A DNA stretch of 64,000 nt from Spartobacteria bacterium LR76. Lineage in GTDB: Bacteria; Verrucomicrobiota; Verrucomicrobiia; Chthoniobacterales; Terrimicrobiaceae. Below, one piece after another: positions 8,554 to 26,923 of this stretch. Within the stretch, counting starts at the first letter, position 1. Every line of letters starts with the position of its first letter. The position numbers and the translations under genes are program-made. The notes below the pieces were generated by a model. That model saw only the letters and a program-made list of their open reading frames with translations. It was not told the DNA's origin and searched no databases. The DNA lies in assembly GCA_003054655.1 (NCBI GenBank), contig QAYZ01000014.1, positions 310,001-374,000 on the forward strand. Direction: 5' to 3'.

Positions 8554-8609
8554 AAAGCATCAGGCTGGGTTTTGCCTAAGGCGAACGAGGCATGCTGGCT
8601 GGCTCGCGG

Positions 8610-8623
8610 TTTATTTAAATAAG
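8610..8623 (+). promoter_or_regulatory. Locus 1 operator site 1
   Basis: TTTATTTAAATAAG, containing a perfect 12-bp palindrome, 47 bp before the preferred start of the clan GH-A glycosidase. It is one of seven copies of the same motif placed at nearly the same distance from start codons in locus 1. Confidence 0.75.
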
Positions 8624-8670
8624 CACTCGGCTTGTTGCGCGGGCGGAGGCGAAATGCTTTCTCCTTGCAA

Positions 8671-10692
8671 ATGAAGTTGTTTCCCTCTCTGTGTTTGTTG
8701 CTGCTGGCCTTCTTCGCCGGATGGACTTCGGGCAGGGCGGATGTCGCGCTGGAGATCGATTGGCGAGCGCCGAGGTTTCAGACGACAGGTCGGCAGTTTT
8801 CGGTGAATGCGCAGGGGGGATTTCATCGGGAGATGGCGGTGCAGCCTGCGTATCGTGAGGGATTAAAGTACCTGAATCCCGGTTTGTTGAGGTATCACAA
8901 TGCCGGGATGCCCAAAGGGGGGTGGATGAACCAGGAGACGAAGACGTGGGACGTTGCGGTGATCGCGGCCACGCTGGACGGGCCGGGGTGGCCGCCTGAG
9001 AAAGTGCTGATCAATATTTCCTCGTGGCCCGCGTGGATGGATGCGGATGGGAACAAGAAGCTGGACAAAGACCAGTACGAGGCGTTTGCGGCGCTTTGCG
9101 CCGAGCTGGTGCGCATCCTGAACGTGGAGCAGAAACGAGGCTTCAAGTATTTTGAGATCACGAACGAGAAGGACTTTGCCTACTGGCGCAACAAGGACGA
9201 GCCGGTGGAGGTTGATGATCTGGCGGATATCTACAACCTCGCGGCGAAGGCGATGAAGAAGGTCGATCCCACGATCAAGACAGGAGGACCGGCGGCGGCG
9301 AGCGGCGAGGATTGGGTCGAGGAGATTCATCGGAGATTTATAAAGCGGACGCTGCCTCAACTGGATTTCTTTTCCTTCCATACGTATCCGCGCACGCGGG
9401 ACTATACGCCTCAGGAAATCTATGACATGCCCGTGTGGATGGCCCGACTGGCAGCGGATCATCGGAAGATGCTCGATGAGTTGAGCCCGGACCGGCGCGT
9501 GGAGCTGCATGTGAACGAATTCAACATCGCGTCAAACTACAAGCTGGGGGACACGCGGATGCATACCAACGAGGGGGCGGTCTTCGACAGCCTCGTCCTG
9601 ATCCGCATGGCGGAGCAGGGAATAGACGTGGTGAATGCCTGGAGTGAGTGTGATGCGGCGTATGGCAAGATGGATAAGAAATTCAAGCTGCGTCCCCCGG
9701 CGCACGTGTTCCATTACTTCAACGAATTCCTTGTCGGCCAGGTGGTGGCGGGCGAGACCTTGGATCCGGCAAAAGTGGTGGTGATGGCGGTGGACTCGGA
9801 GGCCAGACGGGCTTTTGTCCTGGTGAACCGGGCGAGGGAGGCGGTGCGGGTCTCAGTGAGTTCCAAGGGGGCGGAGTTGCCGGCGAAGGGCGAGCGGGTG
9901 CGCATCGACGCAGAGGGACTGCACAAGGAGAGCGTTGTCCGGGAGGGACTGGCGGAGATGGAACTCCCGGCGGACTCGGTGACCTTTTTTTCCTTTCCCA
10001 AGCCCCGGCCTGAAGTCTGGCTCATCAGGGAACTCTACACGGCGGATTTTGACGGGCTGCTGGAGGCGAAGGCGGGCGTGTATGAGTGGACTGATGGCGT
10101 ACTGATGCCAGGGTGGCAGGCACAGACGCTGAAGGGCCCGGAGGTGCTGGAGCCAAAGTACTACCGGGCGACGACCGGGAAGGGCGTGAACCCGACCGTA
10201 AGCAAGGAGCAGCCGACATCGCTGCTGGCATTGCGGGATGGAAAGAACGAGAAGGAAGCTGCCCTGGGCATCGTGAGCAGGAGGGAATATACGGCGGTCT
10301 TTGGCGTGAAGTTTGCAAACAAAACCGGGGCGGCGATTTCGGGACTGGAAGTCAGCTACACGGGAGAGCAATGGGGGTTCAATACTGGAGGAGCCAATGC
10401 GCTGCATTGCGAGTACTCGGTCGACGCGGAGTCCCTCTCCTCCGGCACGTGGAAGGAAGTGAAGTCGCTGACGTTTGTCGCGCCTCACTCGGAGAACAGC
10501 ACGAATGACATGAGTGAGGGAAACGCCGAGGAAAACCGCAGGAGGCTGCCGGCGGTGATCGGGGGGCTTTCCATCGCCCCCGACGGAGTGATCTGGTTGC
10601 GCTGGCGGGATGATGCCAGCAGCACAGAGAGCGGAAGCGCGCAGGTGCTGGGCATTGATGAGCTCAGGGTGAAGGCAGTGACCGGAGAGTAG
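8671..10692 (+). CDS. Secreted clan GH-A glycosidase with C-terminal PEP-CTERM-type module
   Basis: 673 residues when started at the ATG before KLFPSLCLLLL, which gives a clean signal peptide ending near SGRA. A TTG 39 bp upstream would add a non-signal extension. Residues about 25-400 look like a TIM barrel related to GH39/GH51: acid/base Glu in FEITNEKD and nucleophile Glu in VELHVNEFN. A beta domain follows. The last 200 residues form a separate module (YYRATTGKG, SYTGEQWGFNTGGAN, SSGTW, IWLRWRDD, LGIDELRV) that is the same domain as the whole mature part of the PEP-CTERM protein at 14937-15797. The likely substrate is a plant hemicellulose, judged from the adjacent GH10 gene. Preceded by operator site 1. 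Confidence 0.8.
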   Translation: MKLFPSLCLLLLAFFAGWTSGRADVALEIDWRAPRFQTTGRQFSVNAQGGFHREMAVQPAYREGLKYLNPGLLRYHNAGMPKGGWMNQETKTWDVAVIAATLDGPGWPPEKVLINISSWPAWMDADGNKKLDKDQYEAFAALCAELVRILNVEQKRGFKYFEITNEKDFAYWRNKDEPVEVDDLADIYNLAAKAMKKVDPTIKTGGPAAASGEDWVEEIHRRFIKRTLPQLDFFSFHTYPRTRDYTPQEIYDMPVWMARLAADHRKMLDELSPDRRVELHVNEFNIASNYKLGDTRMHTNEGAVFDSLVLIRMAEQGIDVVNAWSECDAAYGKMDKKFKLRPPAHVFHYFNEFLVGQVVAGETLDPAKVVVMAVDSEARRAFVLVNRAREAVRVSVSSKGAELPAKGERVRIDAEGLHKESVVREGLAEMELPADSVTFFSFPKPRPEVWLIRELYTADFDGLLEAKAGVYEWTDGVLMPGWQAQTLKGPEVLEPKYYRATTGKGVNPTVSKEQPTSLLALRDGKNEKEAALGIVSRREYTAVFGVKFANKTGAAISGLEVSYTGEQWGFNTGGANALHCEYSVDAESLSSGTWKEVKSLTFVAPHSENSTNDMSEGNAEENRRRLPAVIGGLSIAPDGVIWLRWRDDASSTESGSAQVLGIDELRVKAVTGE

Positions 10693-10711
10693 GGCCGGAG
10701 CGGCTGTGGTA

Positions 10712-10725
10712 TTTATCTGAATAAG
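10712..10725 (+). promoter_or_regulatory. Locus 1 operator site 2
   Basis: TTTATCTGAATAAG, 46 bp before the start of the GH10 gene and just after the end of the preceding glycosidase, so it gives the xylanase operon its own regulated promoter. It differs from the consensus only at the first base. Confidence 0.75.
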
Positions 10726-10771
10726 GATGTGCGAAGTTTTGGAAACTTCGGCACGAGGTATGTAAGGTGGG

Positions 10772-12601
10772 ATGACTCCCCCCGTGATGAAAAGCTGTGC
10801 ATTGATCGCGATTTTTTCCGCTGCGACACTGGTCGCAGCAGAGCCGCCGGAGCCATACCTGAAGGGTGGGACGATGGTGTTGAGGGAGGCGGGACCGGAA
10901 ATGTTTTCCATCCGCTCTCCGAAGGTGAAGGTGGAGTGGGAGGACGGCACGGAGGCGGGCCGGGTGATGAAAATCACGACAAGCGGGCCGAGGCCGAAAC
11001 ATGACAGCGAGATTCAGTTGAAGGAGCCACTGCCGGCGGACTTCTCCCGAGGCGACGTGGTCTTCCTGCGATTCAAGCTGAGATGTCTGAGCACGGCGGA
11101 GGAGAGCGGAGTGGGAATAATGTCGCCGCTGATCGAACTGGTCGATGAGCCGTACACGAAGACGATCTGGGCGCGGTTTCCGGCGCAGGCGGAATGGACG
11201 GAATTCATGGTTCCCGGCCGGGTGGGACGAGATTACAAGAAGGGAGAACTGGTCCTCAGCTTGCGGGTGGGGTACGCGCCGCAAGTGCTGGAGGTGAAGG
11301 ATCTCGAGGTATGGAAACTGCCTCCGACCGTGGAACTGGCCGCACTGCCTTTCACCAGCCCCCCGCTGTATGCCGGACACGAAAAGAATGCGGCATGGAG
11401 ACAGGACGCCGAGGAACGAATCAATAAATACCGCAAGCAGGATGTGCGCGTGATCGTGACGGACGAGGCGGGGAAACCGGTGCCAGATGCGCAGGTGGTG
11501 CTGGAGCAGACGCGGCATGAGTTCGGATTTGGCACGGCGGTATCGATTCGCGAACTGCTGGGCAATGAAAAACCAGCGGATACGCGGACATACCAGGCGA
11601 CACTGCTGAGCGCCTTTGATTCGTGCGGGACGGAGAATGATCTGAAGTGGCCGGCATGGGACCAGGCGCAGCTCAGGACCAGGACGCTGCTGGGGCTGGA
11701 GTGGCTGCGGCAGGCGGGGTACACGTCGATACGCGGGCATGTCCTATTGTGGCCGAGCTTCTATGCGAACCGGTCGCCAGCGAGGCTCAGGGCGCTGGCA
11801 GGGGAACCGGCGAAGCTTCGCGAGGTGATCCTGGATCATGTAAGGGACGAGGTGACGGCGACGGCACCATTTGTGAACGAGTGGGATGTGATCAACGAGC
11901 CGAGGCTGAATCATGAAATCCTCGACCTGTTGGGCGGGGAGAAATTCATGGTGGAGGTATTCCACGAGGCCAGGAAGTGGTTGCCGGAGGGAAGGCTGTA
12001 CCTGAACGAGGCGCTGACCTTCACGCCGGACAGCCGAATCGAGGAGCTTGAGCGGGTGGCAAAACTCCTGCAGGACAACAGGGTGCCGATCGACGGGCTG
12101 GGCATCCAGTGCCATTACAACGGATGGGTGGTGACTCCGCCTGCGCAGATCGTGGAGACGCTGGACCGGCTGGCAAAGCTGGGGTTGTCGATCCGGGTGA
12201 CGGAGTTTGACATCGACACGATGGACAGTGAATTCCAGGCGAAGTATCTGGCGGATTTCTACACCGCAGTCTTCAGCCATCCGGCGGTGCGGGGAATCCA
12301 GATGTGGGGTTTCTGGGAAGGCCGGCACTGGAAGGCGTCGGCGGCCTTGTGGACACGGGACTGGACGCCGCGCCCGGCGGCGCGTGCGTATCTCGATCTC
12401 GTACGAGGAAAGTGGTGGACGCAAAGCGTGGGAAAGACGGATGGCGCGGGGACATGGGTGGAACGCGGATTCAAAGGTGATTACCGTGTGACGACATGGA
12501 TCGGCGAGCGTGTCGCGGATGTGAGGGAGGTGACGCTGGGGACGGAGCCGCTGGACGTGAAAGTGAAGATTTCCTCTGAAACAAAACTGACCAACAACTA
12601 A
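10772..12601 (+). CDS. Secreted GH10 endo-1,4-beta-xylanase with N-terminal CBM-like domain
   Basis: 609 residues. A signal peptide (MKSCALIAIFSAATLVAA) follows the start; an in-frame ATG 15 bp later is also possible, but AAGG is better placed for the first. Residues about 25-190 form a beta-sandwich resembling carbohydrate-binding modules. A barrel follows with the GH10 landmarks GHVLLWPSF, the acid/base Glu in NEWDVINEPRLN (about 375) and the nucleophile Glu in IRVTEFDID (about 478), then GIQMWGFWEG. The enzyme cleaves internal bonds in xylan. It heads an operon with two further secreted proteins (12608 and 13421) behind operator site 2. Confidence 0.92.
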   Translation: MTPPVMKSCALIAIFSAATLVAAEPPEPYLKGGTMVLREAGPEMFSIRSPKVKVEWEDGTEAGRVMKITTSGPRPKHDSEIQLKEPLPADFSRGDVVFLRFKLRCLSTAEESGVGIMSPLIELVDEPYTKTIWARFPAQAEWTEFMVPGRVGRDYKKGELVLSLRVGYAPQVLEVKDLEVWKLPPTVELAALPFTSPPLYAGHEKNAAWRQDAEERINKYRKQDVRVIVTDEAGKPVPDAQVVLEQTRHEFGFGTAVSIRELLGNEKPADTRTYQATLLSAFDSCGTENDLKWPAWDQAQLRTRTLLGLEWLRQAGYTSIRGHVLLWPSFYANRSPARLRALAGEPAKLREVILDHVRDEVTATAPFVNEWDVINEPRLNHEILDLLGGEKFMVEVFHEARKWLPEGRLYLNEALTFTPDSRIEELERVAKLLQDNRVPIDGLGIQCHYNGWVVTPPAQIVETLDRLAKLGLSIRVTEFDIDTMDSEFQAKYLADFYTAVFSHPAVRGIQMWGFWEGRHWKASAALWTRDWTPRPAARAYLDLVRGKWWTQSVGKTDGAGTWVERGFKGDYRVTTWIGERVADVREVTLGTEPLDVKVKISSETKLTNN

Positions 12602-12607
12602 ACAACA

Positions 12608-13420
12608 ATGAAAACAAAACACCTCCCTCTCTTCGGCAGCGCCGTGACGTGTGTGATCGCCATGGTGGTGCTGGCGGGCAAGGCAGAAGCGCAGAGCGCA
12701 AAGGCATTCTTCAAAGATGGACCCGGGATGAACCGCGTGGATCAGTACCCGGGCAAGCCGGGCGACGGTTGGGCGACGGCGTGGGCGGTGCGAAAGGTAA
12801 AGACGGTGGATATGCTGTCGACGGTTGAGGGAGCACCGGCCAATCCGCACCTGAATATCTGGATGTCGGTGCTCGACGGCGCGGCTGATTACAATAACGG
12901 CGCAGTAGTGAGGCTGTACGACCAGGCGGACAAGGACCATACGATCCGATTCAAGATCAAGGTGGAGAAGACAGCGGGACTGCCCTCATCGGCAGACTTC
13001 GTGGGAGCTTTTGGCGGGGAGTCTCCTGCAAGTAATTTCAACCCGAAATCGACGTGGGTGGTGCGGACGATTGGGAAGACGCCTGAGCAGTGGCGCTGGG
13101 GGGCTTATGACGGGCTGGCCGACGGCGGCTCCTACGATGGATCGTTGATGAAGGAGATCGGAGGCCTGGGGCAAGGGATGAAAGTGGCGATCGGCAGGAC
13201 CTATGCGTTCACCATCACGAACCATCCGCAAAAAGGAACGTATGACGTGCTGGTAAGCGACGGGGCAAACTCCGTGGAGACGCAGAATCTGAAGTATCGT
13301 ACCACCGAGGTCGATTGGGCGACGCCGCAGGCTGGGCTGGCCTTTCAGGCGCAAGGCCGGGAGGTGGGGAATTTGTTGGTCTTCTCGGTTTCTGAAGTAG
13401 AAATCGCCCCGGCACCGTAG
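12608..13420 (+). CDS. Secreted protein of unknown family, paralogue of 16004-16867
   Basis: 270 residues with a signal peptide ending at GKAEAQ. No named family was recognised. The mature part is a predicted beta-sandwich with recognisable blocks: DQYPGKPGDGWATAW, GAVVRLYDQ, FVGAFGGESPASNFNPKSTWVVRT, GGLGQGMKVAIGRTYAFTI and NHPQKGTYDVLVSDG. The same blocks in the same order occur in the protein at 16004-16867. The gene begins 6 bp after the GH10 stop and ends directly against the next start, so it is co-transcribed with the xylanase. A role in binding oligosaccharides or a cell-surface role is guesswork. Confidence 0.75.
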   Translation: MKTKHLPLFGSAVTCVIAMVVLAGKAEAQSAKAFFKDGPGMNRVDQYPGKPGDGWATAWAVRKVKTVDMLSTVEGAPANPHLNIWMSVLDGAADYNNGAVVRLYDQADKDHTIRFKIKVEKTAGLPSSADFVGAFGGESPASNFNPKSTWVVRTIGKTPEQWRWGAYDGLADGGSYDGSLMKEIGGLGQGMKVAIGRTYAFTITNHPQKGTYDVLVSDGANSVETQNLKYRTTEVDWATPQAGLAFQAQGREVGNLLVFSVSEVEIAPAP

Positions 13421-14641
13421 ATGACGAAGGGATGGATCGTGCTGGCGGTTCTGCTGCCAGGGGCATGGCTCCAGGCGGCGGACTCGGATGAGGTGCTGGC
13501 CGGCCTGGAGGCGGAGTATGCCGGAGTGCCGCACTGGATCGCGCGGCTGTACGATCCGCCAAGCGGGGGATTTTACGGTTCGCTGGCGGCAAAGGAGCCA
13601 AGGCCAGATCGGAGTTTCGCGCCCGACATTCAATCCACCTACTTTGCCATCCAGATCCTGAGCGAGGCGGGAGTGCTCGAGACGATGCCGCAGGGTCTGA
13701 GGGCGCGGATGGCCGGGTATTTCCGGGAAAGGCAGGACAGGAGGACGGGATATTTCGTCGATTCGGCGTATCCGGAAATGCGCGACGACCAGCGAACGTT
13801 GGGGCGGGCGCTGAAATTCTCAACGGCGGGGTTGCGTTATCTTGGATCGGAACCCCTGTATCCGCTTCCGGGTCAATCAAAGAAGACAGAGGGGGTGCCG
13901 AGCGGGATGGAAAGCCTGCCGAGTTCGGCGAGTGCGCCATCGGGAGCGCCAGAACATCTCCGAAACGTGGAAGCCTTCCGGCAGTGGCTGGATGAGAGGC
14001 CGTGGGCGGATGCCTGGAAGGCGCTGGATCAGGTGGCCTCTCAGGCGGACGCGATCAAACTGCTGCCAGGGCGGCAGCGCAGGGCGCTGGAGGACGAGGC
14101 GGAAGCCGCGATGGCGCGCCGCCGCGATCCCGAGACGGGCTTCGTCGGCGGGGGGACGACTATCGTGAAAATCTCAGGGGCCTTCAAGATCACCGCGTAC
14201 TGCCGCACGCTGGGGAGGGAGATCCCGGCGGCGGACAAGCTCAAGGAGTCCGTGCTGCGGTGGTATCGGAGCTACCCGATGGTGGATAATATTTTCTTCC
14301 TGAGAAATGGAGCGGAGCTGCTTGCGGAGCTGAAAATGAAGGAGGGCCAGAAGTTCACACCGGAGGAAATCGCAATGGTGGTTGACGTAAGCCGGAGACA
14401 GTTGCAGGCGTTTCGCTGCGAAGATGGCGGGTTTGCAAGTTTTATGAATAGGTATTACCTGAATCCGAATGATATGTTTGGCACGTGCTATGCCGCGGAA
14501 AACAGGCAGGGGGATATGAACGGAACCTCAAGCGCACGTGCGCTGAGAAAGGCGCTGCACGTGCTGGCGGGGAAGGATCTGCCACCGCTGCCGGGTGCGG
14601 GGCGGCAGTATTGGGCGGAGTTTCCGCAGGGTGATCAATAG
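13421..14641 (+). CDS. Secreted alpha/alpha-toroid-like protein of unknown function
   Basis: 406 residues. A signal peptide ends at LQAADS and the ATG follows the preceding stop codon without a gap. The mature sequence has the repeated helical pattern seen in alpha/alpha-toroid proteins such as prenyltransferase-like or lyase domains: DIQSTYFAIQILSEAG, GGFYGSL, DPETGFVGGG, FRCEDGGFASF, and Gly-Gly-rich turns between helices. No catalytic signature was recognised. It is the last gene of the GH10 operon. Its position parallels the toroid protein that follows the paralogue at 16004, so the two pairs probably arose together or do equivalent jobs. Confidence 0.7.
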   Translation: MTKGWIVLAVLLPGAWLQAADSDEVLAGLEAEYAGVPHWIARLYDPPSGGFYGSLAAKEPRPDRSFAPDIQSTYFAIQILSEAGVLETMPQGLRARMAGYFRERQDRRTGYFVDSAYPEMRDDQRTLGRALKFSTAGLRYLGSEPLYPLPGQSKKTEGVPSGMESLPSSASAPSGAPEHLRNVEAFRQWLDERPWADAWKALDQVASQADAIKLLPGRQRRALEDEAEAAMARRRDPETGFVGGGTTIVKISGAFKITAYCRTLGREIPAADKLKESVLRWYRSYPMVDNIFFLRNGAELLAELKMKEGQKFTPEEIAMVVDVSRRQLQAFRCEDGGFASFMNRYYLNPNDMFGTCYAAENRQGDMNGTSSARALRKALHVLAGKDLPPLPGAGRQYWAEFPQGDQ

Positions 14642-14870
14642 GGCGTTTCCCTCAAGGGAACCGCGGATTATTTGTCTAGGGCGGGGTGGATTCGTCCAGA
14701 CGGAAAGTGATCGCCAGCGGGAGCGGTGTTGCCGCCCTTATCCATGATGCCGCAAGGAATCGGTTACGAATTGGACGGAAGCGTTTCAAAAAAGGCACGC
14801 GCAGGAAACAACACTAGCCGCCGCATGACGGTCCAGAATTACTGGACTCCCCGGAGGGCGGGGACGCGAG

Positions 14871-14906
14871 AAAAACTCTCCCCCGATGCAGGCACCGGGA
14901 GAGAGC
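14871..14906 (-). terminator. Rho-independent terminator of the PEP-CTERM gene
   Basis: On the minus strand a GC-rich hairpin with arms CTCTCCC and GGGAGAG is followed directly by TTTTT. It lies 31 bp beyond the stop of the PEP-CTERM gene. Another inverted repeat (GTCCAG/CTGGAC, 14831-14847) lies further downstream. Apart from these structures the 295 bp between 14641 and 14937 hold nothing recognisable. Confidence 0.65.
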
Positions 14907-14936
14907 TGCTTATGAAGAAACGAAGCGGAAACACCC

Positions 14937-15797
14937 TCAGCGAGAGCAGCGACGGCGGCGAAGAATGACTGCGGCTCCCAGGCAGAAACCAACGACTGCG
15001 ATGCTGAGCGTGGATGGCTCGGGGACGGCAGTGAGGCTGAAGTCATCGATGCCAAGGCCCTGACCGACGCCCGTTCCGGAGAAATTATCACTCCAGCGAA
15101 TCCAGAGCGACTCACCCGCTCCGACCGAGAGTCCGGTGATCGTGGCCGAGATGGTGGTGTAGTTCAGTGCTCCCGGCCCGCCGGCCTGGCCAGCGGATTT
15201 GGCGACATAGGCACTGGAGACAAAGATGGTGTCGGAGTTGCCGTTGAGACCCTGGTTGGTCGAGTTGCTGCTATAGAGCGCGTTGAAGTCGAGGTTGTTA
15301 TTGTCCGTCCATGTCCCGGTGGAGAGGGAGGTGGCATCCTCGGAGTAGGCAAAGTCCAGAGTGTTGGCGGCGCCGGTATTCCATGCCCACTGTTCGCCGG
15401 TGTAGGTGATGGTGATGGAGGTGATGGTGAAGCCCGTGTTATTGACAAACTGGGCACCGAAGACTCCATGATAGGTGGAGTTGCTGACGGAGCCGAGCGC
15501 GACGTCGGTCTGGGAAGTACGAAAGGCCATGAGAGAAGTCGGGCTGGCGGCTGTGGTGGTGGGGGTCTGTCCGTTGCCATTGGTAGCCCGGTAGTACTGA
15601 GTGGTGGCTCCCGTTGTCGATCCGTACCAGCCGGAAAGCGTGCTGTTATTCGTCCAAGGGTAAAGGCCTGCCGTATTGGTGGGAATGGAATTGAAGTTCT
15701 GCGAGTAGCTCGACGAGGTCAGTACGATCTGGGAGTGGGAAGATATCATGCCGAGGAGGAGAGTCGTGAGCGCCAAGGGGAAGGTGAATTTCTTCAT
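14937..15797 (-). CDS. PEP-CTERM surface protein sharing its domain with the GH-A glycosidase
   Basis: 286 residues from the ATG before KKFTFPLALTT; a longer frame upstream adds residues before the signal peptide and is less likely. The signal peptide ends near SSHSQ. The single mature domain carries YYRATNGNGQ, TSLMAFRTS, YTGEQWAWNTGAAN, SLSTGTW, LWIRWSDN and LGIDDFSL, the same order of blocks as the C-terminal 200 residues of the glycosidase at 8671-10692. It ends VPEPSTLSIAVVGFCLGAAVILRRRR-like, the PEP-CTERM sorting signal recognised by exosortases (none encoded here). It probably sits at the cell surface or in extracellular polymer. Operator site 3 lies 50 bp upstream. Confidence 0.85.
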   Translation of the reverse strand: MKKFTFPLALTTLLLGMISSHSQIVLTSSSYSQNFNSIPTNTAGLYPWTNNSTLSGWYGSTTGATTQYYRATNGNGQTPTTTAASPTSLMAFRTSQTDVALGSVSNSTYHGVFGAQFVNNTGFTITSITITYTGEQWAWNTGAANTLDFAYSEDATSLSTGTWTDNNNLDFNALYSSNSTNQGLNGNSDTIFVSSAYVAKSAGQAGGPGALNYTTISATITGLSVGAGESLWIRWSDNFSGTGVGQGLGIDDFSLTAVPEPSTLSIAVVGFCLGAAVILRRRRCSR

Positions 15798-15847
15798 AGG
15801 TTCAGGCAGTTGTCGCCATTTCTGCGCGCCGCGCAATGGGTTCAGGA

Positions 15848-15861
15848 CTTATATAAATAAG
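15848..15861 (-). promoter_or_regulatory. Locus 1 operator site 3
   Basis: CTTATATAAATAAG, within a perfect 16-bp palindrome, 50 bp before the PEP-CTERM start on the minus strand. Sites 3 and 4 lie back to back in the divergent promoter region. Confidence 0.78.
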
Positions 15862-15940
15862 TGGAGTGACAGGTTGGCTGGCAGGAAGGATGTTAAGATG
15901 CGTCTTCCGTTGTGTGATCGAGAAGGCCGTTGACATGGCG

Positions 15941-15954
15941 CTTATATGAATAAG
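15941..15954 (+). promoter_or_regulatory. Locus 1 operator site 4
   Basis: CTTATATGAATAAG, flanked by G and C to give a 16-bp near-palindrome, 49 bp before the start of the secreted protein at 16004. Confidence 0.78.
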
Positions 15955-16003
15955 CGGACAGCGAGCTTTTGTTTCGCTCCGGGCATGGCAGGATGGCGGT
16001 GAA

Positions 16004-16867
16004 ATGATTCCTTCCCCTCCCCTCCCTAAACAAGGGCGTCAGCTATCCCACGAACGCCGCAATGATCGATTCTTCCACAGGATGGCCTGGAGCCTTGCCG
16101 CCGCGATCGCACTGTCTTTGCCGACGCCTGGCCGGGCACAGGAGGCCGTGGCGAGATTCCAGGCGGGGGCGGGTTCAAGCCAGGTGGATCAGTTTCCCGG
16201 AGTTGCAGGGGAAGGATGGGCCGACGCCTGGAAAACGTTTAGGTGGGGACCGATCAAAGTACGGACAGAGGTGCTGGGCGGGCCGGCTTCGCCCCGGCTG
16301 GAGGTGGAGATGGCGGCGAGCGAGTCGTCGGAGGAGTTCATTAACGGATCAATCGTTCGGATGTATCAGGCGGCAAATCGCCCGCATCAAATCCGGTTTC
16401 AGATCAGCCTCAACCGGGTGGAGGGAAACAATAATTCGGCAAATTTCATCGGGGCGTTTGGGGGAGTCGATCCGCATCAAAACACCAACAGGAGTTCCAC
16501 CTGGGTGATCCGTACCTGGGGAAGGAATCCCAGTGAGTGGAAATGGGCCGCATACCACGGAAATGGAGACGGTGGGGCGTTTACGTCGAAGCAACTCATG
16601 GAGATCGGCGGACGAGGGCAAGGCATGGCGGTGGAAATCGGGAAGACCTATGATGTGACAATCCAGAACCACCCGGAAAAAGGGACGTACGATGTGGCCA
16701 TCTCTGATGGATCACAAGCCGTCCATGAAGAAGGCCTGAAGTATCGCGCAGGTGCGGCGGAATGGGCACCGGAGCAGGCGGGCATCGCATTTCAAGGCCA
16801 GTTGAAAGACGGTGGCGACGCGATCACGTTTTCCGTTTCGCGGGTGGAGATCTCTCCTCTGCGCTAA
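16004..16867 (+). CDS. Secreted protein of unknown family, paralogue of 12608-13420
   Basis: 287 residues from the ATG at 16004. A second in-frame ATG at codon 27 would give a shorter signal peptide (MAWSLAAAIALSLPTPGRAQ). Shared blocks with the other copy are DQFPGVAGEGWADAW, GSIVRMYQ, FIGAFGGVDPHQNTNRSSTWVIRT, GGRGQGMAVEIGKTYDVTI and NHPEKGTYDVAISDG. Neither copy matches a family I know. It opens an operon with a toroid-type enzyme and an MFS transporter, under operator site 4. The duplicate pair in one regulon suggests a structural or binding role tuned to two related ligands, but that is inference. Confidence 0.75.
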   Translation: MIPSPPLPKQGRQLSHERRNDRFFHRMAWSLAAAIALSLPTPGRAQEAVARFQAGAGSSQVDQFPGVAGEGWADAWKTFRWGPIKVRTEVLGGPASPRLEVEMAASESSEEFINGSIVRMYQAANRPHQIRFQISLNRVEGNNNSANFIGAFGGVDPHQNTNRSSTWVIRTWGRNPSEWKWAAYHGNGDGGAFTSKQLMEIGGRGQGMAVEIGKTYDVTIQNHPEKGTYDVAISDGSQAVHEEGLKYRAGAAEWAPEQAGIAFQGQLKDGGDAITFSVSRVEISPLR

Positions 16868-16882
16868 GGTCCGGTGCTGAAA

Positions 16883-18817
16883 ATGAGCCGCAATGTGTGG
16901 AAATACCGGGTGGTGGTCGCAGCGGGACTAATCGCGGCGGTCGTCTTTCTGGTGACGCAGAAAAGAGAGACGGCTGGAGAGGCCATGCAAAAGCCTGTGC
17001 AGGCGGAGGTGCAGGCGGCCGCGCCGAAGAGCCAGGCGTCTGCTGATTCGAAAACGACCGGGTATGAAGCGCTAGGGCTGACGACACCGGAGCTCAGGGA
17101 GAGATTTGAGGAAAAAGTGGCGGCGAGAAAGGGGCCGACATTCGATCCGGATCTCAAGCTTTTGTATGTCGCAAAGCCCACACTCAAGACCTATGCAAAC
17201 CTGCCTCCCGGCGTGCCTGTGCACGTGACGCGGGACACGCTGTATCTGGCCTGCAGCATACTCAAGGGAGATGATGCTCCGCTGTATCCTGCCGCGCAGG
17301 CGATCCTGGCCAACCTCCTGACGATGCAGGACACGGACCCCGCTAGCCCGACGTATGGCACCTGGCCCCGTGCTTATGAACTTCCTCTGGCGACGGATGT
17401 GAAGCCGGATCTGAACTGGACCGCGTTCTTTGGCGAGGCGCTGCTCGACTTGCGTCTTTCCCACCCCGAGCGGCTACCGGACGCTCTCCGCAAATCCGTG
17501 GACCGCGCCATCGACGTGGCCGCTCGCGCGACACTGGCGCGCACAGGGAGACATGCCGATCCGGGTTATACCAATATCGCAGTCAAGGGAGCCGCCCTTG
17601 CCTGTCTGGCGGGACAGATCTCCGGTGATCCGGAGTTAAGCAAACAGGCCATGGAGAAACTCCGTGGCATCGCCGCATATACCGAACGGCACGGAGACTT
17701 CACCGAGTATAACAGCCCCACCTACGCATGGGTGACGATCAACGCGCTGCAAATCCTAAGGCAGCATTCGACGGACCCCGAGACGAGAGAGATCGCGCAA
17801 AAGCTCTACCATCTGGCATGGGAGGGGGTCGCCCTGCATTATCACGCGCCAAGCGGGCAATGGACGGGGCCATACAGCCGCACGTACTTTGATTTGCTGG
17901 GACCGGAGAATGAATTTGCCAAATGGCTGCCCCGGGCCTTGCTGGGGCCGCCCGATGCACTCTCCGTGCCGGAGGGCCTCAGGCGTTACTTCTCGCCGGA
18001 CAGCCTGCCGCGCATGGTGACACGCACTTACTATCGGGCGGAAGAGAAGACTCGGGGCACTATGGTGAACGGGGAGCTGCTCGGCATCCTTCCGTTGGCC
18101 GGCACCACTTACCTGACCCCGGAATATGCCTTGGGCAGCGTGAGCGCTGGGGACTTTTGGTGGCAGAAGCGCGCAGTGACGGCGCACTGGGGCACGCGGC
18201 AAGATCCCGGTTATTTCCGGCTGCGGTTCCTAAGCGATGACAAGGATTTCCAGGCTCCAGTGATTGTATCTGTCCAGTCGGACGGGCGGGTATTATCGGC
18301 TATTTCGTTTCCGACGGATGGAGCCAGGTACAACTATGATCGCATGCCGGGAGGCAAGCTCAAGACGTCATCCCTGCGCCTGAGGTTTGAATTTGGCGGG
18401 TCGGGCCGCTCCGCCGTCCTGCCTGAGCCCGGAGGGACCGGCAAGGTGATGCGAATTGATCTCGGCGAGATAAAGATGAATATCGACGTCCCGTTTGTGG
18501 CGTGGGATGGCGGCGAGGTCCAATACACGACGGGAGGCGATGGCAAGGCGTCGTGGATCGACCTGGTCCTGCATGATGGCGAGTCGGCGGAGATTGATTT
18601 CCATAAACTGAAATCCGCGCTCATCGTGGTCGCACTGGAGATCAGCAAGATCTCGGAGGATTCCACCGCGCTCACGCCGCCGGTCGTCGAGGTGCAGGGC
18701 AGCGAGGCGGAGATCACATGGGACGGACTCCGTCTCCGTGCGCCGTTGACGCCGGGAAGCAAGGAGGAGTTGTTGCGGCGATACCGGCTCGGGCCAGGCG
18801 CGGTCGTCGGACGATGA
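16883..18817 (+). CDS. Membrane-anchored or exported alpha/alpha-toroid, heparinase/lyase-like protein
   Basis: About 644 residues (a GTG at 16874 with a nearby AGG is an alternative start). An N-terminal hydrophobic helix (VVVAAGLIAAVVFLV) acts as signal anchor, followed by an Ala/Gln-rich linker. The central part shows helical-toroid motifs: YTNIAVKGAALACLAG, FTEYNSPTYAWVTINALQ, HYHAPSGQWTGPYSRTYFDLLG. A C-terminal beta-sandwich begins near FWWQKRAVTAHWGTR. This layout resembles heparinase II/III and alginate-lyase type enzymes, but I cannot assign a PL family or catalytic residues with confidence. Its stop overlaps the start of the transporter gene (ATGA), so the two are translationally coupled. 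Confidence 0.65.
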   Translation: MSRNVWKYRVVVAAGLIAAVVFLVTQKRETAGEAMQKPVQAEVQAAAPKSQASADSKTTGYEALGLTTPELRERFEEKVAARKGPTFDPDLKLLYVAKPTLKTYANLPPGVPVHVTRDTLYLACSILKGDDAPLYPAAQAILANLLTMQDTDPASPTYGTWPRAYELPLATDVKPDLNWTAFFGEALLDLRLSHPERLPDALRKSVDRAIDVAARATLARTGRHADPGYTNIAVKGAALACLAGQISGDPELSKQAMEKLRGIAAYTERHGDFTEYNSPTYAWVTINALQILRQHSTDPETREIAQKLYHLAWEGVALHYHAPSGQWTGPYSRTYFDLLGPENEFAKWLPRALLGPPDALSVPEGLRRYFSPDSLPRMVTRTYYRAEEKTRGTMVNGELLGILPLAGTTYLTPEYALGSVSAGDFWWQKRAVTAHWGTRQDPGYFRLRFLSDDKDFQAPVIVSVQSDGRVLSAISFPTDGARYNYDRMPGGKLKTSSLRLRFEFGGSGRSAVLPEPGGTGKVMRIDLGEIKMNIDVPFVAWDGGEVQYTTGGDGKASWIDLVLHDGESAEIDFHKLKSALIVVALEISKISEDSTALTPPVVEVQGSEAEITWDGLRLRAPLTPGSKEELLRRYRLGPGAVVGR

Positions 18818-20175
18818 CAACTCCGGCCACGTCCAGGAACGCACCCTCAACATGGAGGGCGGGAACGCTGGTGTACACCAGCGGCGGGATCGTCGTGTTG
18901 TTCCTGCTCTTGCTGTTTGGAGATTTCGCCTGGGCCATGAGGGAGCGCTCGGTGGGGCCGATGGCTCAGTGGTACCTGAAGCACCTGGATGTCCCAAATT
19001 TCCTTTACGGGTTGCTGATCAGTTCGGTGCCGGCGCTCATCGGGCTGATCTTCGCACCGATGATCAGCTATCGGTCCGACAGGCACCGGGGGCGGAGAGG
19101 GCGGCGCATTCCTTTTCTGCTGGTGACCACACCTCTGGCGGTTTCCGGCATGATCGGGCTGGCGATGTGCCCGATTCTCGGACCGTGGCTGCATCAGCTA
19201 TTGGGGGAGTACTCCCCCGGAGAGATGGTTTTGACTCTCGTGTGTTTCGGAGTGTTTTGGACGGCCTTTGAGTTTGCGACCATCGCGGTGACCGCGGTCT
19301 TCGGCGGGCTGGTCAATGATGTGGTGCCTCAGTGTCTGCTGGGGCGGTTCTACGGCTTGTTCCGTGCGGTAAGCCTGATCGATGGAATGATCTTCAATCG
19401 GTTTCTGATCGGAAAGGTCGAGACTCACTACACATTGATCCTCGGCCTGATTGGCCTGGGGTACGGGATCGCCTTCATGTGGGTGTGCCTGAAGGTCAGG
19501 GAGGGGCAATACCCGCCGCCGGAGCATCCGCCCGGGCGCTCGGGGGTGCTGGCGGGTGCGAAGATCTATCTGCGAGAGTGTTTCACGAGCAGGTACTATC
19601 TGCTGATCTTTCTGATGGTCACTGCGGCGACGCTCTCCTTCCTGCCGATCAATACCTTTGCGATACCATTTGCGAAGGAGATGGGGATGTCGATGCAGGA
19701 TTACGGCAACTGCCTGGCGCTGACGTTCTTCATCTCGTTGTGCCTGGCCTTTTTTATCGGCTGGCTGGCGGATATCTTCCATCCGTTGCGAATGTGCATT
19801 GCCTCCATGGCAGGCTATGTGCTGGTGGCGGCGTGGGGAGGGGCGTATGCGACGACGGCAGAGACCTTTTCGATTGCGCTTGTGCTGCACGGGGTGTTGT
19901 CCGGCTGCTATTTCACGAGCGCCGCGTCGCTTGGACAGAGGCTGTATCCGCATTCCAAGTTTGCGCAGTTTGCCTCGGCCGCTGGCATACTGGGATCATT
20001 GGGTGCCATGACACTGGGGCCATTGATCGGCACGGTGATCGATATGTCCGGCAACAGCTACCGGCACGCCTTCTCCGCTGGTGTGGTGCTGGCCGGGGTG
20101 GCGCTGCTGGCGGCCTTTGCCGTGCACGCGCGATTCATGAGACTGGGCGGTCCGAAGAACTACACCGCGCCCTAG
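18814..20175 (+). CDS. MFS / GPH-like sugar:cation symporter
   Basis: 453 residues from the ATG that overlaps the previous stop; the frame is open further upstream but only inside the preceding gene. About 12 hydrophobic segments are visible. The loop between helices 2 and 3 carries SYRSDRHRGRRGRRIPFLL, the basic motif of the GPH and related MFS sugar families, and helix 1 contains a GDFAWAMRE segment. It probably imports the oligosaccharides released by the secreted enzymes of this operon. No outer-membrane partner (SusC/TonB type) is encoded nearby. Confidence 0.88.
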   Translation: MTTPATSRNAPSTWRAGTLVYTSGGIVVLFLLLLFGDFAWAMRERSVGPMAQWYLKHLDVPNFLYGLLISSVPALIGLIFAPMISYRSDRHRGRRGRRIPFLLVTTPLAVSGMIGLAMCPILGPWLHQLLGEYSPGEMVLTLVCFGVFWTAFEFATIAVTAVFGGLVNDVVPQCLLGRFYGLFRAVSLIDGMIFNRFLIGKVETHYTLILGLIGLGYGIAFMWVCLKVREGQYPPPEHPPGRSGVLAGAKIYLRECFTSRYYLLIFLMVTAATLSFLPINTFAIPFAKEMGMSMQDYGNCLALTFFISLCLAFFIGWLADIFHPLRMCIASMAGYVLVAAWGGAYATTAETFSIALVLHGVLSGCYFTSAASLGQRLYPHSKFAQFASAAGILGSLGAMTLGPLIGTVIDMSGNSYRHAFSAGVVLAGVALLAAFAVHARFMRLGGPKNYTAP

Positions 20176-20182
20176 AGGGACT

Positions 20183-20206
20183 CTTTCCAGTGACTACTGG
20201 GGAAAG
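20183..20206. terminator. Candidate bidirectional hairpin between convergent genes
   Basis: CTTTCC-AGT and ACT-GG-GGAAAG form an imperfect stem between the converging transporter and prepilin genes, overlapping the prepilin stop codon. There is no long T run. Only 18 bp separate the two coding regions, so a shared terminator is plausible but unproven. Confidence 0.35.
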
Positions 20207-20868
20207 ATGGTCCAGAGGTCGGCATTATTAACGACCTCGGACCTCGAGAGCATTTCCGCATGGCCGTCGAAGAAGACCACGCCAGCCCTTCCCTCGTAGC
20301 GATAGGCAATGGCGCTGCCGATGAACTCCTCTTTGCCCGCATAGAGATCAGCAGCCATCATCTTGATCTGCCAGTCGAGGGCGTCGGCAAAGGCGAGGGT
20401 CTTGGAAGGAGATCTCATGCGCTGGGCCACGGCCTGCCGGATGGTGTTGGGCGTGCCGGCGACGCCTCCCAGGGATTCATAGTTATAGCCGTAGGAGCGA
20501 TCCGTCCGGCGGTATCCCTTGTCATTGCGGATGGTGGCGAGAGGCGAGAGCATCCCATCGGGCCACGGGCCGGTTTTGGAGATATTGAGGTAGTTCGCAC
20601 GGAACTCGGGATTCTCATGCCAGTTCACCCCCTTCCCCTCGCTATCCCAGATGGAACTGGCGACGAAACGTCCGTCGTGTTCTGCGGAATAGGCAATATT
20701 AGCGGCCTGAATGACGCGGAGATTGGCCAAGTTTTTCGCCTTTTGCGCGCTGAAGCGGGCGGACTGAAAGACCGGCAGGAGGAGGGCGGCAAGTACAGCG
20801 ACAATGGCAGCGCTAGAGAGGATCTCCAAGAGGCTGAAGGCGGAATCGCGATGACGGGTTGAGAGCAT
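20194..20868 (-). CDS. Prepilin-type N-terminal cleavage/methylation protein
   Basis: 224 residues with a basic leader then AFSLLEILSSAAIVAVLAALLLP, where Glu is at the expected +5 position and the pre-cleavage residue is Ala rather than Gly. The globular part ends with AGVVFFDGHAEML, the usual motif near the end of this large Planctomycetes/Verrucomicrobia prepilin group. It stands alone on the minus strand behind operator site 5, so it is probably expressed together with the xylan-type enzymes. A role in secretion or surface attachment is possible. Only its membership of the prepilin class is secure. Confidence 0.85.
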   Translation of the reverse strand: MLSTRHRDSAFSLLEILSSAAIVAVLAALLLPVFQSARFSAQKAKNLANLRVIQAANIAYSAEHDGRFVASSIWDSEGKGVNWHENPEFRANYLNISKTGPWPDGMLSPLATIRNDKGYRRTDRSYGYNYESLGGVAGTPNTIRQAVAQRMRSPSKTLAFADALDWQIKMMAADLYAGKEEFIGSAIAYRYEGRAGVVFFDGHAEMLSRSEVVNNADLWTIFPQ

Positions 20869-20930
20869 CCAAGGGGGAGGTGATGAGAGGAACTATAAGC
20901 CGGATCAGTGGCGGCGCAGGCGGACTGTGA

Positions 20931-20944
20931 CTTATTCAGATAAG
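20931..20944 (-). promoter_or_regulatory. Locus 1 operator site 5
   Basis: CTTATCTGAATAAG on the minus strand, 62 bp before the prepilin start. It matches the body of site 2 exactly. Confidence 0.75.
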
Positions 20945-20951
20945 AGATGCA

Positions 20952-21980
20952 TTAGGGGAGGGCGCGAACCGTGCGACCGGGAGCCCATGTGCCCTCGACG
21001 AGGATCGAGTTGGGGACGGAGGGGATGCCAGTTTCGCGACGGTGGATCATATCTACGACGAACTCGACAGCCTTGGCGCCGATGAGTCGGGGATTTTCCC
21101 AGATGCCGGAGAACTTGCGGCCCTCGTCGGGGACAGAGAGGAGGGCCAGACCGATGGTGCCGGGGACGGATTCGCCAGCTTCGACCAGCCAGTCGTATAC
21201 CGCGGGCCAGATGGCGAGGACGACATCGGGCCGGTGGCGAAAGAACCACTTGAGGAAGGATGCCTTGTCAAGCGAACGGGAGAGAAGGGGCGGAACGCGA
21301 TCTCGGGCTGGGAGGCGGCGCTGCTCGCTCCAGAAGGATGCGGACCAGTTATGATCGGCGCGGAGGTCGCTGTCGTCAGCCAGGGCCAGGCCGGGGCGGC
21401 GGTAGCCCAGGGAGAGAACCTCCCTTATGGCGATTCGCATGGAGCGGAACTGGTGGAGCGCGGCGAGATGGAGCTTGGGTTCGGAAAGGGTGTAGCCGAA
21501 GGTGACTGCAGAAAAGCGGTGGAAGGGAAATGTCATGCAGACGTGGGGGCGCGGCTGAGGAGCGATGAGGAGACCATTGATATTGCGCGTGATCAGGATG
21601 CGCTCCATGCGGGCGCTGGTCATCCCTTCGTCGTTGAGCCAGTGCTCCTCAAGCTTGTAGCCGAGCTCGGCGGCCCGGTGCAGGGCACCTTTGAAGTAGT
21701 TGAGAAACGTATAGGAACTGCGCCAGCCTTCGGCGTCCGGGTAGTTTGACAGCCAGGCCAGGGTGGCCTGGAAGTGGACAGGCCGGACGTGCTTGCGATA
21801 GGCGGAAAGACCAGAGAGATAGGGATCGGGAATGTATCCCATTTCGCGGGCGGCTGCCTGGACGCGCTCCTGGGTCTCGACGGGTATGCTGTGGTTGCTG
21901 GCGAGGGCGAGGGAGACGGCCGCCTGCGTGAGGCCGAGACGCTCGGCGATGGCTTTTTGGGTGACTCGGGGGGTGCCCAT
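20952..21980 (-). CDS. LacI-family transcriptional regulator of locus 1
   Basis: 342 residues from the ATG before GTPRVTQKAIAERLG; an in-frame alternative 15 bp upstream is less typical. The helix-turn-helix and hinge helix are complete (TQKAIAERLGLTQAAVSLAL, then IPVETQERVQAAAREMGYIPDPYL). The rest is a LacI/PBP ligand domain ending MIHRRETGIPSVPNSILVEGTW. It lies in the middle of locus 1, divergent from the PL22-like gene, and copies of the locus motif sit before both. It is therefore the obvious candidate for binding CTTATMTGAATAAG. It belongs to the same subfamily as the regulator at 53102-54187 (shared AKEMGY/AREMGY-PDP start and VEGTW end). Confidence 0.92.
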   Translation of the reverse strand: MGTPRVTQKAIAERLGLTQAAVSLALASNHSIPVETQERVQAAAREMGYIPDPYLSGLSAYRKHVRPVHFQATLAWLSNYPDAEGWRSSYTFLNYFKGALHRAAELGYKLEEHWLNDEGMTSARMERILITRNINGLLIAPQPRPHVCMTFPFHRFSAVTFGYTLSEPKLHLAALHQFRSMRIAIREVLSLGYRRPGLALADDSDLRADHNWSASFWSEQRRLPARDRVPPLLSRSLDKASFLKWFFRHRPDVVLAIWPAVYDWLVEAGESVPGTIGLALLSVPDEGRKFSGIWENPRLIGAKAVEFVVDMIHRRETGIPSVPNSILVEGTWAPGRTVRALP

Positions 21981-21992
21981 AAGTGCACTTAT
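21979..21992. repeat. Perfect palindrome over the regulator start codon
   Basis: ATAAGTGCACTTAT, perfectly symmetrical, overlaps the ATG of the regulator gene. Its half sites face the opposite way to those of the seven operator copies, so it may be an extra autoregulatory site or coincidence. Confidence 0.35.
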
Positions 21993-22036
21993 CAATATCA
22001 GTAAATCGCGGGTGCTCCGAGAGCAAAGAGGGGCTT

Positions 22037-22050
22037 GTTATATGTATAAG
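22037..22050 (-). promoter_or_regulatory. Locus 1 operator site 6
   Basis: GTTATATGTATAAG, 56 bp before the regulator start, suggesting autoregulation. Read in either direction it keeps the TTAT...ATAA arms. Confidence 0.65.
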
Positions 22051-22078
22051 TAAAATAACCAAAAAGACCCCCTCACCT

Positions 22079-22092
22079 CTTATCTGTATGAG
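22079..22092 (+). promoter_or_regulatory. Locus 1 operator site 7
   Basis: CTTATCTGTATGAG, 48 bp before the PL22-like gene, with one mismatch in the right arm. Sites 6 and 7 serve the divergent pair. Confidence 0.65.
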
Positions 22093-22140
22093 TGCGGAAG
22101 GAGTAGGAACCTGGACAGGACGGATGATGTGTAGGGGGAA

Positions 22141-23313
22141 ATGAACGCATCTCTAGCCTCGGTCGAGGCTGTTTCTGTCACACAGGGCGCAGGCCACCAC
22201 TTCTTTGGGTATTACGACAAATCCTGCTGGGATGCGGGCGGGCGGTGGATATTGGGGCAGGAGAGCGGGTTCATGCACCGTCCGCCGGGGGAGAACGATG
22301 TGCTGAAGATCGGGATGATCGACACGGCGAACGGGTGCGAGTGGATGCCGCTGGCAGAGACGCGGGCGTGGAACTGGCAGCAAGGGTGCATGTTGCAGTG
22401 GCTGGGAACCAGCAGAAAGGTGATCTTCAACGACCGGAAGGACGGGAGATATGTCGCGAGAATCCTCGATACCGCGACGGGCAAGGAGCAGGTCATCGAC
22501 AGGCCGGTGTACGGAGTCAACCGGGAGGGAACGTATGCGGTGTCGGTGAATTTCTCACGGCTGCATCACCAGCGTCCCGGGTACGGATATGCGGGAGTAC
22601 CCGATCCGTGGAAGGAAGAGGGTGAACCGGAGGAGGACGGGATATTTGCGGTGGATTTGCAGACGGGAGAGTCGCGGTTGATCCTGAGCACGGCGGAGGC
22701 GGCGGCATTTCTGCGGAATGCCTCGTTTGAAGGGAAAACGCATCGCTTCAACCATCTGCAGTTCGGGGCGAATGGGAGGAGGTTTGCTTTCCTGCATCGG
22801 TACAAGACGCCGGAGGAAGAGGTCGGGAGCACACGTCTGATGACGATGGATATCGATGGGAAAAATCTCTGCTGCCTCTCGGATCACCAACTGGTGTCGC
22901 ACTATGACTGGCGGGGGAGCGATGGCATCCTCGCCTGGGCGAACCGTAACGGGAGCGGAGCGCACTATTACTACTTCCGAGATCAGTCGAGCCAGATCGA
23001 GATGGTGGGTGACGGCGACCTGGCGTGCGATGGGCATTGCTCCTTCTCTCCGGACGGGAAATGGGTGCTGACCGATACATACCCCGACACGGAGCATTAC
23101 CGGACGCTTCTGTTATATGGTTGGGAGCGCCGGGAGCGGATCGACATCGGAAAATTCCTGTCACCGCCGATGGAGTGGCAAATCCGGTGCGACCTGCACC
23201 CGAGATGGAACCGCGACGGTCGAAAGATATGTATTGACTCTCTGCACGAGGGCCGCAGGCAGATGTACGTGCTGGACGTGAGCGAGATCGTCCTGAGCGG
23301 AGACTTTGCGTAG
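22141..23313 (+). CDS. PL22-like (oligogalacturonate-lyase-type) beta-propeller protein
   Basis: 390 residues without a signal peptide, so cytoplasmic. An AGGGGG ribosome-binding site precedes the ATG. The sequence has the repeated blades of a TolB/oligogalacturonate-lyase propeller: GHHFFGYYDKSCWD at the start, RFNHLQFGANGRRFAFLHR, DGHCSFSPDGKWVLTDTYP and CDLHPRWNRDGRKICIDS. The His residues in HLQF, DGHC and DLHP are placed like the metal-binding His of PL22. I infer a lyase or related enzyme acting on imported uronate oligosaccharides; a different propeller family is possible. The GH2 gene follows 55 bp later, with a short GCCCC/GGGGC hairpin between them. Confidence 0.65.
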   Translation: MNASLASVEAVSVTQGAGHHFFGYYDKSCWDAGGRWILGQESGFMHRPPGENDVLKIGMIDTANGCEWMPLAETRAWNWQQGCMLQWLGTSRKVIFNDRKDGRYVARILDTATGKEQVIDRPVYGVNREGTYAVSVNFSRLHHQRPGYGYAGVPDPWKEEGEPEEDGIFAVDLQTGESRLILSTAEAAAFLRNASFEGKTHRFNHLQFGANGRRFAFLHRYKTPEEEVGSTRLMTMDIDGKNLCCLSDHQLVSHYDWRGSDGILAWANRNGSGAHYYYFRDQSSQIEMVGDGDLACDGHCSFSPDGKWVLTDTYPDTEHYRTLLLYGWERRERIDIGKFLSPPMEWQIRCDLHPRWNRDGRKICIDSLHEGRRQMYVLDVSEIVLSGDFA

Positions 23314-23368
23314 GGATCCGAAGGCCCGCCCCATCATTAGGGGCGAGCCGAGATTCCTACTACTCATT

Positions 23369-25364: not shown

Positions 25365-25402
25365 TTGACGCTGCTGTTTATCTTAGTGTATTTTTTACAC
25401 CA
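25365..25402 (+). promoter_or_regulatory. pncB promoter with NrtR-type operator
   Basis: A -35 box TTGACG at 25365-25370 is followed after 16 bp by TGTATT. The element TAGTGT-N7-ACACCA (25384-25402) overlaps this -10 box and ends on the first base of the pncB start codon. The same arms and spacing occur before nrtR. The predicted transcription start is only a few bases before the ATG, so the transcript may be leaderless. Confidence 0.7.
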
Positions 25403-26865: not shown

Positions 26866-26923
26866 CCATGACGGAAATTCCCGCCCTGGCGGGCCTGCTC
26901 ATCAACGCATTAAAGGAACATCC

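Follow-up and report, generated by a model that had tools for sequence, protein, structure and literature searches.

Why would one bacterial locus encode the same accessory module twice, once at the end of a secreted glycosidase and once on a protein with an exosortase anchor signal? The question arises from a 64,000-nucleotide stretch of the genome of Spartobacteria bacterium LR76 (contig QAYZ01000014.1, positions 310,001 to 374,000), referred to below as the window, in which about 220 C-terminal residues of a GH39-like enzyme were found to be homologous to the mature part of a PEP-CTERM protein, the two aligning end to end. The reading that we prefer, and to which sequence and predicted fold lend an even chance, is that both copies would bind the polymer of the locus, acting as a substrate-capture module of the carbohydrate-binding module (CBM) kind, with one copy anchored and the other on the enzyme. 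The features concerned are the following.

8671..10692, plus strand: GH39-like secreted enzyme (PF01229), 673 amino acids, with a C-terminal module predicted to be a jelly roll
10036..10671, plus strand: module copy 1, fused to the enzyme (profile envelope)
14937..15797, minus strand: PEP-CTERM surface protein, 286 amino acids, with a signal peptide (recognised by eye), one module and an exosortase tail
15033..15710, minus strand: module copy 2, in the anchored protein (profile envelope)

Comparison of the enzyme module with the PEP-CTERM module revealed 36% identity and 49% positives over 263 amino acids (E 3e-39), and a MAFFT pair alignment of the two gave 43% identity. Every block named in the sequence-only reading, which had first claimed a block-by-block likeness, is present in the pair alignment. 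The trimmed module pair scored 163 bits and the best of 1000 shuffles of the enzyme module 26.2 bits, ruling out chance or composition as the cause of the likeness. A search of the whole genome (4.75 Mb, 96% complete) returned four matches, namely the two copies, a further segment of the enzyme copy and a single short hit at another place, the latter covering the C-terminal region of the PEP-CTERM protein (query residues 212-283); full copies in the genome are limited to these two.

The PF01229 match of the enzyme (E 1.4e-14; 54.2 bits against a cut-off of 26) spans residues 132-326 and follows a signal-like N-terminus. In a PDB search, the nearest solved chains were beta-xylosidases (E 4.9e-10), and E166 and E283 of the enzyme align with E160 and E277 of 1px8, which we take to be the catalytic glutamates of GH39. 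By its sequence, the enzyme is a predicted beta-xylosidase-like GH39 member, with the catalytic domain and both glutamates of the GH39 beta-xylosidases 1px8 and 1w91, from which it differs by the C-terminal jelly-roll module, a part absent from the 19 other catalytic matches of the phylum. The tail of the PEP-CTERM protein was matched by PF07589 with 21.1 bits against the Pfam cut-off of 20.7, and the genome holds one exosortase copy (PF09721, E 1.1e-44), bearing out the claim that one module is tied to a catalytic domain and the other to an exosortase anchor. With PEP-CTERM/exosortase surface proteins, as described by Haft et al. 2006 (PMC1569441), the anchored protein has in common a signal peptide, a short mature part, the PEP-CTERM tail and an exosortase gene in the genome; it differs from what is described there in that its mature part also occurs as an accessory domain on an enzyme with the same operator.

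This operator is the palindromic site CTTATWTRAATAAG with its variants, for which 10 strand matches were counted in the window at up to two mismatches, against 0.19 expected. A relaxed pattern, at up to one mismatch, has 15 strand matches in the 4.75 Mb genome, 7 of them in this locus; its exact matches genome-wide number three, all in this locus. Seven sites, one per transcription unit, lie 40-61 base pairs (bp) before seven start codons, and a LacI-family gene is among those served.

8609..8624: operator before the GH39-like enzyme gene, 46 bp before the start
10711..10726: operator before the GH10 gene, 45 bp before the start
15847..15862: operator before the PEP-CTERM gene, 49 bp before the start
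15940..15955: operator before the operon beginning at 16004 (transporter operon), 48 bp before the start
20930..20945: operator before the pilin-like gene, 61 bp before the start
22036..22051: operator before the lacI gene, 40 bp before the start
22078..22093: operator before the p390 gene (22141; GH2 operon), 47 bp before the start
20952..21995, minus strand: LacI-family regulator (PF00356, E 7.9e-7), proposed reader of the operator

Since seven sites stand at such distances from seven genes, the arrangement is that of a local LacI regulon. The common operator claimed for the enzyme and the PEP-CTERM gene was thereby confirmed. The PEP-CTERM gene is read from the minus strand and has a plus-strand operon on either side; the two module genes are therefore separate units of one regulon and not one operon. 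The LacI of the window would be the reader of the sites, judging from its position and from the same arrangement in a further genome, G701.

Which other genomes hold such a pair of modules became apparent from a tree of 39 modules, picked from 96 with long branches left out and the G701 copy added. It revealed a clade of seven (support 98/91) made up of both window copies, two copies each from G220 and G423 and one from G701. In a tree of 94 modules, which lacked the G701 copy, the window copies grouped with those of G423 and G220 and the long-branch row L146 (85/87). G423 appears to be Cerasicoccus arenae; G220 and G423 belong to one family and are therefore not independent. All seven clade modules, in four genomes, lie near a related LacI gene, with 47-60% identity of LacI in the three other genomes. 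The clade copies of G423 and G220 are found within a few kb of homologues of LacI (47-48%), the pilin-like protein (48-51%) and p406 (36-42%), a protein of the window locus described below, and the G701 copy is about 5-8 kb from homologues of LacI (60%), p390 (64%) and the GH2 enzyme (61%). The G701 contig also has GH3, GH28 and GH16 genes, and the G220 locus an alginate-lyase-family protein. Of 23 loci with a stand-alone module from outside the clade, taken as a control, 2 had a LacI homologue nearby, in each case at no more than about 30%.

Operator-like sites accompany the clade genes to a varying degree. On the start side of the G701 module gene, 7 strand matches close to the window consensus were found in 20 kb, with 0.6 expected; in G423, exact TCTATATGTATAGA precedes both clade genes (5 matches versus 0.9 expected); the evidence from G220 is weak, its 3 matches being reached in 4 of 200 shuffles. 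The anchor signals are uneven as well. The tail of one G220 copy scored 19.8, just under the cut-off of 20.7, one G423 copy has a PEF-type tail by eye only and no Pfam match, and no PEP-CTERM-type tail was found on the second copies of G220 and G423 or on the G701 copy. In G701, the unanchored clade module gene (L193:15125-15949) is divergent from a 989-amino-acid PEP-CTERM frame with PATR repeats (L193:15747-18713), and two operator-like sites lie next to the module gene, on its start side; this is another pair of an anchored and an unanchored protein, its members not being homologous to each other.

Two residues set the clade apart, Arg at module position 72 (7/7 versus 2/32 other modules) and Gln at position 208 (7/7 versus 5/32). 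The clade swaps a family-typical Gly for Arg at the former and a varied residue, often Asp, for Gln at the latter. Read from the alignment, these changes are possibly a swap at a ligand site.

Structure prediction, which had been proposed for both copies, was run for the enzyme copy (10012-10689) from an alignment of 28 modules, and gave an all-beta jelly roll (beta-sandwich) with CBM-type neighbours at a predicted local distance difference test score (pLDDT) of 84.9 and a predicted template modelling score of 0.87. The first solved match in Foldseek was the CBM of a putative chondroitinase, 8jiy (E 6.6e-6, TM 0.37-0.39). After VIA realignment of 1000 Foldseek chains, the gingipain K domains came out nearest (Z 11.3-11.9), with meprin MAM and reelin domains near them; CBM4-2 (10.9), the porphyran-binding CBM (10.4) and 8jiy (10.2) are all within about two Z units of the top, and absence of a family from the fold list is no evidence against that family. 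With these mixed neighbours, the fold fits both glycan and protein ligands. The jelly-roll CBMs (CBM4, CBM16, CBM61, the porphyran CBM 8xmz and 8jiy) resemble the module in predicted fold, in size range and in their C- or N-terminal place on glycan enzymes; the module differs from them in its mostly non-glycan enzyme partners and in sequence, the module profile having no match among the sequences of solved chains and the Pfam CBM profiles none in the window module. The cleaved-adhesin (K) domains of Lys-gingipain are likewise modules of a secreted hydrolase, but share 8-10% identity with the module and belong to another secretion and anchoring system.

The fold also bears on the second suggestion of the sequence-only reading, a matched pair that docks, in which the modules would bind each other and the anchored copy would recruit the enzyme to the surface. 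MAM domains, which are homotypic binders, are near neighbours of the model (meprin and RPTP-mu, Z 10.4-11.2), both copies belong to one regulon, and G220 and G423, too, hold one anchored-type and one unanchored clade copy. The catalytic partner, however, is not kept, the clade modules of G220, G423 and G701 occurring without GH39, and G701 has a single clade copy. We regard docking as improbable.

How far the module reaches beyond this clade was revealed by the profile search that had been proposed for finding its partners. No Pfam or NCBIfam profile covers the window copies of the module, which measures about 210-220 residues. It is present in 51 of 387 genomes of the phylum (E ≤1e-5), in 13 of 97 relatives (E ≤1e-3), the own genome included in both counts, and in 18 of 213 genomes of the order at E ≤1e-15, a cut that hides weaker members; a plasmid collection gave no match. 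No paper on the module was found in the literature searched, and the existence of one is not thereby disproved. The fetched stretches contained 84 module-bearing reading frames, 53 of them of at least 400 amino acids and 31 shorter, which rules out that the module is purely a PEP-CTERM filler. Some copies stand alone with a PEP-CTERM tail; others are joined to lyases, porphyranase-type enzymes, nucleases, phosphatases or further proteins.

The 52 long frames outside the window were considered in a Pfam scan (44 in a table of their own, 7 in a tally only, L140 unscanned), the tally showing 25 of 47 partner families. Partners were Exo_endo_phos (6), Endonuclease_NS (3), Endonuclease_1 (at least 3, namely L039 and 2 in the tally), calcineurin-like phosphatase (2), GDSL lipase (1) and BD-FAE esterase (1), besides RCC1, LTD, LamG, PATR and many Ig-like domains. 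Glycan-enzyme partners comprised porphyranase-type proteins with CBM domains (L137, L138), a Chondroitinase_B/PL6-like protein (L112) and pectate lyases (at least 3 in the tally, two being L143 and L144); the third pectate lyase and the other Endonuclease_1 members were placed among the 7 tally-only frames by subtraction. Altogether, a glycan-enzyme profile is found in at least 6 of the 52 frames, and nuclease or phosphatase profiles in more. This mixture implies that the module is a general accessory part of secreted proteins and not a glycosidase part. The possibility raised earlier that the domain is a generic PEP-CTERM filler unconnected with glycosidases therefore holds in part: the wide family is generic and mostly found apart from glycosidases, but glycan loci are where the clade occurs, and fusions to porphyranase-type and pectate-lyase proteins exist in the family as well. 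The two porphyranase-type proteins (L137:1633-6738 and L138:1388-6547) are about 1700 amino acids long, with the module N-terminal and CBM6/CBM35-like domains. One of their genomes, G180, also has a stand-alone PEP-CTERM module, L117, which is closest to them in the tree, a pair that parallels the enzyme and anchor of the window.

Because the partners of the wide family are so mixed, the main rival to glycan capture is a passive role, in which a widely reused module would serve stability, spacing or matrix embedding with no specific ligand. The breadth of the partners, from nucleases, phosphatases and GDSL lipase to RCC1, Ig, PATR and LTD domains, speaks for it, as do the stand-alone copies at 23 loci outside the clade (24 with L101, whose listed distances mix clade and non-clade copies) and the link of PEP-CTERM proteins to exopolysaccharide made in PMC1569441. 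The locus clade, on the other hand, is distinct in the 39-module tree and tracks one regulon, and its conserved Arg72 and Gln208 are as expected for a specific ligand. A passive role is possible, though on balance somewhat unlikely.

The history of the fusion was read from the catalytic part, which was found in 18 of the 387 genomes, the own genome included, with 19 matches besides that of the window. None of these 19 frames, nor their flanking frames, contains the module; the best of them, in G255 (48%), stops after the catalytic part, and although it ends about 220 bases from the contig end, its frame closes with a stop before that end. Two searched genomes of the same genus gave no match to module, p406 or GH39. 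As clade modules elsewhere occur with no GH39 and 0 of 19 other GH39 matches have the module, the enzyme gained the module of the regulon in the lineage of the window, and, by the distribution of the sequences, the module was part of the locus before it was fused to GH39. The description of the module as the enzyme's own is not supported, and a module native to this GH39 family is ruled out by the same 19 matches. That the PEP-CTERM gene was recently duplicated into the enzyme is ruled out by the low identity, by the position of the enzyme copy, which is not nested in the anchored subclade, and by its lack of an insert common to the three anchored-type copies.

That the fusion is a recent, functionless accident, the GH39 gene having caught the module gene in frame, would agree with its occurrence here alone among the catalytic matches and with the distance of 4 kb between the copies. 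An accident of this kind is very improbable, as the enzyme module is no young copy (36-43% identity, a long branch, no nesting, the insert missing) and its conserved core has been kept, which argues that it is maintained.

Capture of one glycan explains the findings best in our view: the predicted fold resembles that of CBMs, and in four genomes the clade follows glycan loci under LacI control. Of the capture protein for the same glycan that the sequence alone had suggested, the common module and operator, the CBM-like fold and the place of the clade in LacI glycan loci stand; that the ligand is a glycan, that both copies bind the same one and in which direction LacI control runs is what we infer. 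In this mechanism, a LacI-controlled glycan-degradation regulon would make both copies. The anchored one would be processed by the exosortase of the genome and retain the polymer at the surface of the cell, the fused copy would keep the secreted GH39 enzyme on the same polymer, and the products would enter through an MFS (major facilitator superfamily) transporter and relieve LacI. Several results weigh against capture. The GH39 fusion was seen in one genome only, no GH39 match was found in G220, G423 and G701, and the sole clade copy of G701 has no anchor. In the wider family, the enzymes joined to the module are mostly nucleases and phosphatases, so that a glycan ligand is not a family-wide rule, and MAM, Eph ligand-binding and adhesin domains reach Z values (10-12) equal to or higher than those of CBMs.

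A tentative and rather doubtful extension is that the clade constitutes a substrate-capture system of Verrucomicrobiota LacI glycan loci, consisting of an anchored module and a second released copy, which is free in two genomes and welded to GH39 in the window, and that the wider family is a large class of surface-binding modules. If so, one domain would do the work of both the surface glycan-binding proteins of Bacteroidota and the CBMs of enzymes. In Bacteroidota, SusE, SusF and other surface glycan-binding proteins are non-catalytic and co-regulated with the glycan enzymes of their locus. The PEP-CTERM protein of the window is like them a non-catalytic surface protein co-regulated with glycan enzymes; it differs in its exosortase anchor in place of a lipoprotein and in a module common to the enzyme. 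Neither SusC nor SusD was noted among the genes read in the window locus.

Jelly-roll CBMs and LacI regulons are known kinds, as are GH39 enzymes and PEP-CTERM proteins. The novelty lies in a module family that has no name, in a clade of it bound to a regulon, and in the sharing of both module and operator between an enzyme and an exosortase anchor. The window offers the cleanest handle on module function, with two natural copies, one small regulon and an identifiable inducer class, and that function would bear on how bacteria without a Sus system may hold polymers at the surface.

The remaining genes of the regulon are listed below.

10772..12601, plus strand: GH10 enzyme of the regulon (PF00331, E 2e-38)
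12608..13420, plus strand: secreted protein of no known family (no Pfam or NCBIfam match)
13421..14641, plus strand: p406, secreted protein with a predicted alpha/alpha toroid, accompanying the clade module in two further genomes
16004..16867, plus strand: paralogue of 12608-13420 (45% identity)
16874..18817, plus strand: 647-amino-acid protein of the 16004 operon (no Pfam or NCBIfam match)
18718..20175, plus strand: MFS transporter (PF07690, E 5.3e-16)
20194..20868, minus strand: pilin-like protein with an N-terminal methylation motif (PF07963, 18.7 bits, below the cut-off of 21.2)
22141..23313, plus strand: p390, kept with LacI and GH2 in one other genome (63.5% in L194)
23306..25075, plus strand: GH2 enzyme (PF02836, E 5.4e-41)

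From the family names GH39, GH10 and GH2, the substrate of the locus is probably a xylan-like or mixed plant polymer. The model of p406 is an alpha/alpha toroid (pLDDT 82), with a squalene-hopene-cyclase-type protein as the best Foldseek match (E 7.6e-4) and weaker matches to GH154, GH76, GH105 and GH88; its profile reached no better than E 0.14 against solved structures. The protein is rare (6 of 384 genomes of the class) and, going by its model, possibly a candidate new glycan enzyme. Against solved structures, p390 and the 647-amino-acid protein matched only designed proteins (E 1 and E 0.0013, respectively). The genes at 12608-13420 and 16004-16867 form a second duplicated pair in two operons of the regulon, both products being secreted and lacking a Pfam or NCBIfam match.

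No tRNA genes were found in the window. A phage-type integrase gene (4732-5907) lies about 1.5 kb before the locus; its presence, together with the two same-genus genomes lacking module, p406 and GH39, suggests that this part of the genome may be mobile or variable. The next genes after the glycan locus form a nicotinamide adenine dinucleotide (NAD) salvage cluster (25402-29595), comprising nicotinate phosphoribosyltransferase (NAPRTase), NAD synthase and a nicotinamide mononucleotide (NMN) transporter.

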